From Alicyclobacillus contaminans DSM 17975 (GTDB lineage Bacteria > Bacillota > Bacilli > Alicyclobacillales > Alicyclobacillaceae), in assembly GCF_000429525.1 (NCBI RefSeq), contig NZ_AUCA01000010.1:1-64000 (forward strand): a stretch of DNA of 64,000 nt. Direction: 5' to 3'. The notes under the pieces were generated by a model. It made no database searches. It had not been told where the DNA came from and was given only the letters and a program-made list of their open reading frames with translations. Shown piece by piece: positions 17,074 through 20,468 of the stretch (positions are counted from its first letter, which is position 1; every line of letters starts with the position of its first letter). A program made the position numbers and the translations under genes.

Positions 17074-19296
17074 TCACGGCACCAATGTGTCTTCGGCTTT
17101 GAGTCTGCGGACGCTGGGTTTGCCCACCGGCACGCCTATCATCAGCAGAAGCGGAGCGAGCCCATACAGCGCCGTGATGCCCATGCCCTGCCAGATGGCG
17201 GGCAGGTCGTGAATGGCGATGATGTTGCGCAGGGTGGCAACGCCATACGTCATGGGCAGCAGCGGATGCACCCAGTGGAAGAAGACCGGAACCAGGTTGA
17301 GGGGAAACGTCCCCGCGCTGGATGTGAGTTGCAACAGCAGCAGCACAATGCCGAGAAAACGGCCGGGCCCTGTTCCCAACCACGTGATGATCCACCCAAT
17401 GAGGGTGATGTCCGCCAGTGACAGCAGCACCACGTACAGGTAGAACAATAGGTTGCTCGTCACGGTCAGCCCCAGTCCGTATCGAAGGACCGTCGCCGCA
17501 ATCACGGCTTGCCCAATCCCGATGCACCACAGCACCCCCAGTTTGCCGATGACCACCTCCGCATACGGAACCGGGGACAGGCGCCAGCGTCCATCGCGCA
17601 TGGGGACCAGGAAGAACAACATCAGGGCGCCCACCCACAGGCTCAGCGGAATGAAATACGGGGCCAGCCCGGCGCCGTACTGATTCACCTGAAACAGGGA
17701 ATGGGACACCGGCCGAATGGGATGTGCCATGACGTACGCGCTGACGTTCGGCTCCGCGTTGGCGGTGTTCATCGCGTCCGACACTTTCCCCGCAAAGGTC
17801 TGCTGGCCGTTCGCCAATTGTCCCGCGCCGCTCGCCAGCTGCATGGCTCCCTGATGCAGCGAAGACGCCCCGTTCGCGAGCGTCTGACTACCAGCCGCCG
17901 ACTGTGCCAAACCGTGGCTGACCGCGGTAGCGCCGGATTGCAGCTGCGCCTGCGCGTGCTGCACCTGCGTCAATCCGCTCTGGAGTCGCGACAGTCCGGA
18001 TTGCACCTGGCCCAGCGCTGTATACAGCGGCGCAATGCCCTGTTGGAACTGGGACATGCCGAACGCCAGGGAGGAAGCACTCTGTGCCAAGGATTGACTG
18101 TTCGCGTACAGCGTTTGACTGCCCGATTGAAGCTCTGACAGCGCGCTCGACAGGGACGCGGCGCCCTCCCCGGTCTGGTTGAGCGCGTCGGACAGCTGCT
18201 GCAGTCCGCTCTCGGTTTGGCCCAGAATGGAGATGGCCTGTTGGACGCGTGGATCGGCGTTCGATCCCGCATCATTCGCGTACGTCTGCAGCAGACTCAG
18301 CGCCTGTGCCAGGCCGTTCTGCAGCGATTGCACCGCTGTTTTTTCGGATGCGGCGCCATCCTGAATTTGTTTGGCGCCCGCCGACGCCTGCTGGACGCCG
18401 TCGTTCAACTGTTTCACAGCGGTGCTGAACTGGTCGAGGCCGTTCGCCAACTGCTTGCTGCCGGTCACCAGTTGCCCCGCAGGGCTCGACACCGGCTGTA
18501 TCTGCTGCCGGATCTTCGCCAGTGCTTGCGTGGATTGCTGCATTCCCTGCTGCACCTGCGCGGTGCCGTGCTGGACCTGTGCGAGTCCGTTGACCACCTG
18601 GGTGCTGCCCGGCGCCAACGCGTGCAGACCGCTGTTCAATTGCGCGCTGCCACTTGCCACTTGCCCACTGGCTGAGGCGACTTTGTTCGCGCCATCCGCC
18701 ACCTGTCGGCTGCTGGCTGCCAGTTGGTTCGCCGCCTGGACGATTCGACTCATGTCTGATTTCGACTGACCGACCACGTCCAGCAGCCGTTGAATGAACG
18801 TCTGGCTGAAATTTTGTGCCATCGACGCGGCAATCTCACCCTGAACGCGACTCGTGATCTGACCCGCCAGGTAATTCTTCGCCGGATTCGATTCGAAATC
18901 CAGATTGGCGCGCCGCGGATGGCTGGTGCCCACGCTCAGGATGTCTTCGGTGAAGGTCTTCGGGATATCCAGCGTCATGTAATACGTGCCGTCGTGGAGA
19001 CCTTGGGACGCGGCGCTCGCGCTGACCATGTGCCAGTCCAGTGAGCGGTCCTTGAGCAGACTGGTCTGCAGGTCCTTGCCGAAGTTCACCGCTTTGCCGT
19101 CCTGTGTTCCGCCCGCGTCCTCGTTGACGATGGCCACGGGCAATTTGTCCAGGTGTCCGTACGGATCCCAGAATGCCCACAGATACAGACTGCTGTACAA
19201 CAGCGGGAGCACGAGCATGGACGCGAGGCCCACGCGACGCAGTTTATTTCCCCAGAGACGCGCCCATTCGACGCGGAAGATGGTCCACAGTCGCAT
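17074..19296 (-). CDS. YhgE/Pip-family membrane protein with ABC-2-type C-terminus
   Basis: 740 residues. One N-terminal membrane segment (LASMLVLPLLYSSLYLWAF) is followed by the conserved PVAIVNEDAGG of YhgE/Pip (phage infection protein) relatives. A long extracytoplasmic stretch (about 200-560) holds many repeats of the type LNSGLHALAPGSTQVVNGLA, which predict long helices or coiled coil. About five membrane segments of ABC-2 permease type end the protein. Start: ATG at 19296 after GGAGGGAG. The first 53 nt lie inside the end of the upstream gene, so the two are probably translated together. The function of the family is not settled; roles in type VII secretion, phage adsorption and export have been suggested. 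Confidence 0.85.
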   Translation of the reverse strand: MRLWTIFRVEWARLWGNKLRRVGLASMLVLPLLYSSLYLWAFWDPYGHLDKLPVAIVNEDAGGTQDGKAVNFGKDLQTSLLKDRSLDWHMVSASAASQGLHDGTYYMTLDIPKTFTEDILSVGTSHPRRANLDFESNPAKNYLAGQITSRVQGEIAASMAQNFSQTFIQRLLDVVGQSKSDMSRIVQAANQLAASSRQVADGANKVASASGQVASGSAQLNSGLHALAPGSTQVVNGLAQVQHGTAQVQQGMQQSTQALAKIRQQIQPVSSPAGQLVTGSKQLANGLDQFSTAVKQLNDGVQQASAGAKQIQDGAASEKTAVQSLQNGLAQALSLLQTYANDAGSNADPRVQQAISILGQTESGLQQLSDALNQTGEGAASLSSALSELQSGSQTLYANSQSLAQSASSLAFGMSQFQQGIAPLYTALGQVQSGLSRLQSGLTQVQHAQAQLQSGATAVSHGLAQSAAGSQTLANGASSLHQGAMQLASGAGQLANGQQTFAGKVSDAMNTANAEPNVSAYVMAHPIRPVSHSLFQVNQYGAGLAPYFIPLSLWVGALMLFFLVPMRDGRWRLSPVPYAEVVIGKLGVLWCIGIGQAVIAATVLRYGLGLTVTSNLLFYLYVVLLSLADITLIGWIITWLGTGPGRFLGIVLLLLQLTSSAGTFPLNLVPVFFHWVHPLLPMTYGVATLRNIIAIHDLPAIWQGMGITALYGLAPLLLMIGVPVGKPSVRRLKAEDTLVP

Positions 19297-19945
19297 GCTG
19301 TTCTCCCTCCTCTGCTTGTGAGATATCCACCACCACATTCGCTCTGGCCGCCTCCTCCGGTTGGGCGGCCGTGAAGAGGACACCCACGTCGGCTCGGTTG
19401 AGGTCTTCGAACAATCGCCAGGCGGTCTCGCGTTCGGCGGGAGTCAGGCTCGCCAACGGTTGATCCAACAGAATAAACCGGGGATCTCCCGCCATGGCGA
19501 CCGCCGTACCCACGCGAAATTGCGCAAAGGCGTCCAGGTCTTTGATTCGCTGCTTCGCCACGTCCATCAGATCGAACTGTTCCAGCAGCTGACGTGTCCG
19601 TTCCTGGATGGATTTTTGACGAAACAGGGCCAGTTGGCTGCGGACATGTTCGCGGACGGACAGCGTGTCGAACAGCGGGTTCAACGCGGCAACGGGCCCC
19701 AAGGCAACGGTTGCAGGCGATGGAGCGTGCCACGCGGCCTCGCGGCCGTCCGGTGCCTCTTGCACGAGACCCACGCGACCGTGCGTGCAGCGGATGATGC
19801 CGGCAGCGAGCAGCAGCACTTCGGTGAGGACGGATGCGGGGCCGCCGGTGACAGCCCCCGTGGTTCCGGAGCGCAGTTGAAAGGAAAGGCTGCCTTTGGG
19901 GGCGTGGTGCCCTGTCCAGCGCACCTGATCGAAGACGAAAATCAT
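19244..19945 (-). CDS. ABC-ATPase-like protein with degenerate catalytic motifs
   Basis: 233 residues that align with ABC-2-type ATPase subunits but lack their catalytic residues. The Walker A position reads GAVTGGPAS (30-38), with Pro-Ala in place of Lys-Ser/Thr. The signature is DAFAQ (138-142) in place of LSGGQ. Walker B is FILLDQP with Gln162 for the catalytic Glu, and the H-loop has Gln195 for His. Fold markers such as TLSVREHV and the helical spacing remain. Start: ATG at 19945, 7 nt after GGAGG. It overlaps the YhgE/Pip gene by 53 nt and is preceded by a palindromic operator. It is probably a non-hydrolysing partner; that role is inferred. Confidence 0.7.
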   Translation of the reverse strand: MIFVFDQVRWTGHHAPKGSLSFQLRSGTTGAVTGGPASVLTEVLLLAAGIIRCTHGRVGLVQEAPDGREAAWHAPSPATVALGPVAALNPLFDTLSVREHVRSQLALFRQKSIQERTRQLLEQFDLMDVAKQRIKDLDAFAQFRVGTAVAMAGDPRFILLDQPLASLTPAERETAWRLFEDLNRADVGVLFTAAQPEEAARANVVVDISQAEEGEQHATVDHLPRRMGASLGK

Positions 19946-19958
19946 CACCATTCCTCCT

Positions 19959-19975
19959 AATGACATTGTGTCATT
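19959..19975. promoter_or_regulatory. Perfect palindromic operator before the ABC-like/Pip operon
   Basis: AATGACATTGTGTCATT: 7-bp arms with a 3-nt centre, directly abutting the ribosome binding site of the ABC-like gene. The form fits TetR-family repressors. No TetR gene is adjacent. Confidence 0.5.
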
Positions 19976-20180: not shown

Positions 20181-20468
20181 ATGCTGTTCAGAGTCGGGAA
20201 GGTCAAACTGAGCCGAGCGGTGTTGGAGAGCGATGTCCAGGTGGAGGATCTGATTTCCGCGTTCGAACGGTACTTACGAGGGGATTGGGGAGACGGGGAC
20301 TTCGCGCCGGACATCTCGAACGATCTCGCCCTGACGTGTGGTGAACGGATTGTCGCGACGTACACGGCGGCCGACGGGCAGAAAATTTGCATGTCCACCG
20401 CGAACGGCCGCACGTACATCTGCTTCCCGCACGAGGTACAGTCCTTACGAAACACGGTGTTCACCTGA
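20181..20468 (+). CDS. Small conserved protein of unknown function
   Basis: 95 residues, predicted soluble. The order RYLRGDWGDGDF, NDLALTCGERIVATY and GQKICMSTANGRTYICFP resembles a widespread family of about 90-residue proteins (GDWG...N..AL..G.R..S.Y...DG.KIWI.T...R..T..LP) found on plasmids, phages and chromosomes, whose role is unknown. Start: ATG at 20181 after GGGAGG. It stands alone upstream of a LysR gene. The family link is by pattern only. Confidence 0.6.
   Translation: MLFRVGKVKLSRAVLESDVQVEDLISAFERYLRGDWGDGDFAPDISNDLALTCGERIVATYTAADGQKICMSTANGRTYICFPHEVQSLRNTVFT

Follow-up and report, generated by a model that had tools for sequence, protein, structure and literature searches.

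Proteins of the YhgE/Pip family, which include phage entry factors and EsaA, resemble ABC-2 permeases yet have no recognised motor. The window analysed here, a 64,000-nt stretch of the Alicyclobacillus contaminans DSM 17975 genome, holds a gene for such a protein together with an overlapping gene for an NBD-like protein, a pseudo-ABC ATPase with degenerate catalytic motifs. The locus raises the question of whether the NBD-like protein is a maintained partner that does not hydrolyse ATP, as an earlier note on this DNA proposed, or a subunit in decay. Known members of the YhgE/Pip family (TIGR03061/TIGR03062) include Lactococcus Pip, enterococcal PIP-EF, B. subtilis YhgE and EsaA, the last of which acts in type VII secretion. 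YhgE/Pip proteins function in phage DNA entry (PMC4999554).

Both genes lie on the minus strand. The NBD-like gene (19244–19945) begins at the ATG at 19945 and encodes 233 amino acids plus a stop codon that ends at 19244, while the YhgE/Pip gene (17074–19296) encodes 740 amino acids from an ATG at 19296, giving an overlap of 53 nt (19244–19296). A Shine-Dalgarno sequence located by eye, AGGAGG (19953–19958, minus strand), stands 7 nt upstream of the NBD-like ATG, and YhgE has a strong ribosome-binding site of its own, GAGGAGGG, inside the NBD-like gene. The intact frame, the good ribosome-binding site and the 53-nt overlap described in the earlier note were all recovered. Because the frame of the NBD-like gene extends open far past the start codon (489 codons), its being open is weak evidence when taken alone. 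The partner is a clear YhgE/Pip family member, with scores of 186.8 bits for TIGR03061 and 179.1 bits for TIGR03062, both above cut-off, and 59.2 bits for ABC2_membrane_3; the EsaA profile TIGR03929 gave 84.2 bits, under its cut-off of 122. Its AlphaFold model was of low confidence (pLDDT 67, pTM 0.40) and was not used as evidence; no match below E 0.001 was found for it in the PDB, and the one relevant weak hit was 3cni, an ABC-2 transporter domain. A defence system was also considered for this locus and rejected, as the PADLOC matches were weak and involved only coiled-coil or ATPase look-alikes.

The 233-residue protein is predicted to have a real ABC NBD fold. It scores 26.4 bits against Pfam ABC_tran (PF00005; gathering cut-off 25), and AlphaFold, supplied with a 17-row family alignment, returned a confident NBD (pLDDT 87.7, pTM 0.85). 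In a Foldseek search with this model, the nearest solved structures included LptB and FtsE (E to 8e-17, TM about 0.73). FtsE itself is an active ATPase with consensus motifs, unlike the pseudo-NBD.

Motifs were assigned from the family alignment, with residues numbered from the ATG at 19945 and genomic positions obtained by arithmetic (all on the minus strand). The degenerate Walker A is GGPASVLTE in place of GxSxSGKST (residues 34–42, 19820–19846) and aligns with GPSHSGKST of A. pomorum, so that Lys is replaced by Leu40. The signature region reads KDLDAFAQFR (residues 135–144, 19514–19543), with LDAFA at the position of LSGGQ, and in the degenerate Walker B, LDQP (residues 160–163, 19457–19468), Asp161 is kept and Glu is replaced by Gln162. 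The H-loop His position is occupied by Ala193 and the Q-loop Gln position by Val85, and the D-loop Asp is lost as well. The alignment thus bears out the claimed loss of every catalytic motif, including the Glu to Gln162 change, and corrects three details: the Walker A Lys had been read as Pro, the signature as DAFAQ (one residue off) and the H-loop His as Gln195. The Q-loop and D-loop losses are additions to the earlier reading. By alignment, the window protein is an NBD fold without any usable catalytic motif.

Profile searches identified the NBD-like and YhgE/Pip pair in 21 genomes from five Bacilli families: 6 of 41 Alicyclobacillaceae genomes, 2 in the sister family f2, 7 in f37 (the family that includes Tumebacillus), 2 in f31 and 4 in f18. 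The NBD-like gene is directly upstream of YhgE/Pip in every case, adjacent or overlapping. The pairing is therefore conserved among homologues, and we propose from these sequence comparisons a small, previously unremarked family of putative pseudo-NBDs paired with YhgE/Pip. The nearest relative of the window genome, A. pomorum DSM 14955, shares its genus code within Alicyclobacillaceae and carries the pair in the same syntenic place. To look for the family beyond Bacilli, 398 genomes sampled from the phylum were searched at E 1e-40, and nothing was detected apart from the window's own member. No YhgE neighbour was found for the far genome-contig matches outside Alicyclobacillus and Tumebacillus (L025–L073). 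The 12 orphan YhgE loci read in sister genera had no NBD-like gene alongside. Two further arrangements were seen among the pairs: Tumebacillus lacus has a second, unpaired YhgE placed divergently beside its pair (L024 3657–5717, minus strand), and one paired YhgE (G048; L104 5786–9160, plus strand) is 1124 amino acids long against the usual 590–760.

All 20 paired rows of the YhgE tree fall on one side of a branch that separates them from the orphans (support 93/89, not starred), and the paired YhgEs form their own clade within the wider YhgE/Pip family. The NBD-like proteins are monophyletic with respect to eight canonical NBDs (100/100) and sit on a long stem. The two trees agree on the main groups, as they should if the NBD-like and YhgE genes travelled together.

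Motif loss across the family is graded. None of the 21 NBD-like proteins has LSGGQ, a Q-loop Gln, a D-loop Asp or an H-loop His. Canonical Walker A and B motifs are present in 12 of the 21, including A. pomorum, and the Walker B Glu in 15. Walker A Gly-Lys has become Ala-Lys in the two f2 members, and Lys has become Arg in the two f31 members, one of which also carries Asp for the Walker B Glu. The four f18 members have no Walker A and have His in place of Glu; the window member has Leu for the Walker Lys and Gln for Glu. The NBD-like tree requires the Walker Lys to have been lost two or more times. Loss of the Walker A Lys and Walker B Glu was secondary in the window species and happened separately in f18. 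The idea that the degenerate motifs are conserved in homologues holds for LSGGQ and the Q-, D- and H-loops and fails for Walker A and B.

The retained Walker motifs bear on the possibility that most members act as functional, if non-canonical, ATPases or as ATP switches that drive YhgE, with Walker A and B active, a KDLDxF-like signature replacing LSGGQ, and the window protein a case of local loss. Twelve members do have GKS/T together with DE, and the KDLDxF-like residues are conserved among the Alicyclobacillaceae members. We nevertheless consider this explanation quite unlikely, as none of the 21 has the H-loop His or the Q-loop Gln, and strong constraint persists even in members that lack Walker A entirely. 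Given both observations, the conserved role cannot need hydrolysis in every lineage.

That constraint is clearest in f18. Among three f18 species, whose NBD-like proteins have no Walker A and carry His for the Walker B Glu, omega for the NBD-like gene was 0.08–0.105 (bootstrap maximum 0.18), comparable to the values of about 0.09–0.15 among intact members; YhgE gave about 0.06 in the same comparison. No other result argues as strongly for the maintenance of a catalytically dead member. A protein-level omega near 0.1 also argues against a reading in which the NBD-like frame survives solely as a leader whose translation is coupled to that of YhgE, and not for its protein. The 53-nt overlap and the overlaps in other pairs examined are what such a leader would produce, but the protein fold is conserved, YhgE has a strong ribosome-binding site of its own, and orphan YhgEs are translated alone; we regard this reading as highly improbable.

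For the window gene itself the evidence is more divided. The intact Walker motifs of A. pomorum and other relatives beside the same gene are the pattern that the earlier note took to point to recent decay, and the gene could be an early-stage pseudogene: the ancestral pair would have been functional, YhgE would no longer need the NBD-like protein, and selection would have relaxed. Several results fit this scenario. The existence of orphan YhgEs shows that the NBD-like protein is dispensable for YhgE, and the sister species has Walker A and B intact in the same syntenic place. The NBD-like protein is the fastest-evolving in its neighbourhood, with 42.5% identity to its A. pomorum counterpart compared with 64% for YhgE and 66–90% for the other neighbours. 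Its terminal branch is 1.48 in the window species and 0.45 in A. pomorum (3.3-fold), the corresponding YhgE branches being 0.38 and 0.18 (2.1-fold). In a codon branch model, the window branch omega was 0.48, a value that is compatible with 1, is not separable from 1 or from the background, and was obtained with dS saturated.

Other features of the window gene are harder to reconcile with a pseudogene. It has no stop or frameshift, and its ribosome-binding site, operator (see below) and overlap are all intact; in a simple neutral simulation, an uninterrupted frame survived in just 2.8% of runs after 0.2 substitutions per site and in 1% after 0.3. Moreover, the changes cluster at catalytic positions. 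The window protein retains 33 of 44 conserved non-catalytic columns and 1 of 6 catalytic ones (Fisher p 0.0098), and so keeps the former as well as A. pomorum does, which in a leave-one-out comparison retains 40 of 54 non-catalytic and 6 of 7 catalytic columns. Column retention and the neutral simulation favour, indirectly, maintenance of the window gene. Relaxed constraint after the loss of nucleotide binding is likely and complete neutrality is possible, but we judge the early-pseudogene scenario as a whole to be unlikely. Simple decay is not the whole story despite the intact Walker motifs of relatives, because the Walker-less f18 genes remain under strong constraint and the window protein keeps most of its non-catalytic columns. 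The proposal of a maintained, non-hydrolysing partner therefore stands at the level of the family, with its 21 pairs and purifying selection in f18, and does not hold in its original form for the window gene, whose relatives keep Walker A and B.

A palindrome, TGACACAATGTCA (19961–19973, no strand assigned), lies immediately upstream of the operon, between it and a TATGAT-like box, and is one of seven such sites in the window genome. TGACA-N3-TGTCA also stands upstream of this gene in seven other genomes examined (A. pomorum, A. kakegawensis, A. shizuokensis, A. herbarius, G040 and two Tumebacillus-family genomes), and the genomes with the palindrome have only 2–8 such sites each. This putative repressor operator, probably of TetR type, supports a regulated operon, although it cannot separate the roles of the two genes. 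In line with an operator of this type, the pair is flanked by TetR-like regulator genes in Tumebacillus avium (L023 8677–9252, minus strand) and overlapped by one in another genome (G043; L105 3488–4084, minus strand). Two tandem copies of the palindrome mark the beginning of an MMPL-like exporter gene in a Tumebacillus-family genome (L204, positions 1501 and 1546; G207 C1), which suggests one regulon for YhgE and MMPL exporters there. Divergent from the operon in the window is a small ORF, MLFRVGKVKLSRAVLESDVQ... (20181–20468, plus strand), for which A. pomorum has a relative in the corresponding position.

Canonical ABC NBDs of the ABC-2 and LptB/FtsE types (PF00005) are alike to the pseudo-NBDs in fold, in motif order and in gene position beside an ABC-2-like membrane protein; they differ in that LSGGQ and the Q-, D- and H-loops are gone in all 21 members here, and Walker A and B in some. 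A precedent for lost catalytic motifs is offered by heterodimeric ABC exporters (TM287/288, TAP, CFTR, Pdr5), in which the degenerate domain is under selection as a hinge or regulator (PMC7756269). Those exporters keep one catalytic composite site (PMC7756269), whereas here, with only one NBD-like gene, both sites would be degenerate. Alternatively, an intact NBD from another locus might be the heterodimer partner of the pseudo-NBD, which would then resemble the degenerate half of such an exporter. Pairs of degenerate and consensus sites are common in ABC exporters (PMC7756269), and other ABC ATPases are present in the window genome. However, none of the loci read contained a second NBD gene belonging to the overlapping pair, and the Walker A and B motifs usually contributed by the degenerate half are missing from the window protein as well, which makes this arrangement very doubtful. 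FtsEX is a further parallel, with an ABC-fold subunit that signals through its membrane partner and does not serve transport (PMC11627006). We found no description of an NBD partner of YhgE/Pip or EsaA in the papers searched, which is weak evidence given thin coverage of subscription journals.

Taken together, we favour, at a probability of roughly 0.6, a reading in which the pseudo-NBD would be a non-hydrolysing, dedicated structural or regulatory cytoplasmic subunit of the ABC-2-like YhgE/Pip protein. The two proteins would bind each other, with the pseudo-NBD docked on YhgE as a structural part or nucleotide sensor and not as a motor. We infer that most members do not hydrolyse ATP because any homodimer would lack LSGGQ and the Q-, D- and H-loops in each of its halves; these members probably bind ATP, and would do so through the retained Walker A and B. 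ATP binding is improbable for the window and f18 members. In these lineages nucleotide binding would be dispensable, and a docking or assembly role may remain. YhgE would then work without ATP hydrolysis from the pseudo-NBD, as the orphan YhgEs of sister genera must. The earlier suggestion that YhgE works without hydrolysis from this subunit, or that the ABC-like part is structural, accordingly finds support in the family and less in the window gene for which it was made.

More tentatively, at odds we would put somewhat short of even, these loci may represent an ABC-2-fold membrane protein acting with a dedicated pair of NBDs that never hydrolyses ATP, with at least two lineages unable to bind it and surviving relatives showing the stages of loss. 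A lineage that retains a motor-shaped subunit with its catalysis stripped in graded steps offers a test of whether YhgE is a former ABC exporter. The same lineage lets one ask what YhgE does without ATP and what an NBD does once it is not an enzyme. In the window species the loop that would hold ATP is lost too, which suggests a membrane machine with the form of a motor but no use of fuel. If this reading is true, an ABC-type complex would have kept the form of its motor, now in a structural or regulatory capacity, once ATP had been lost altogether.
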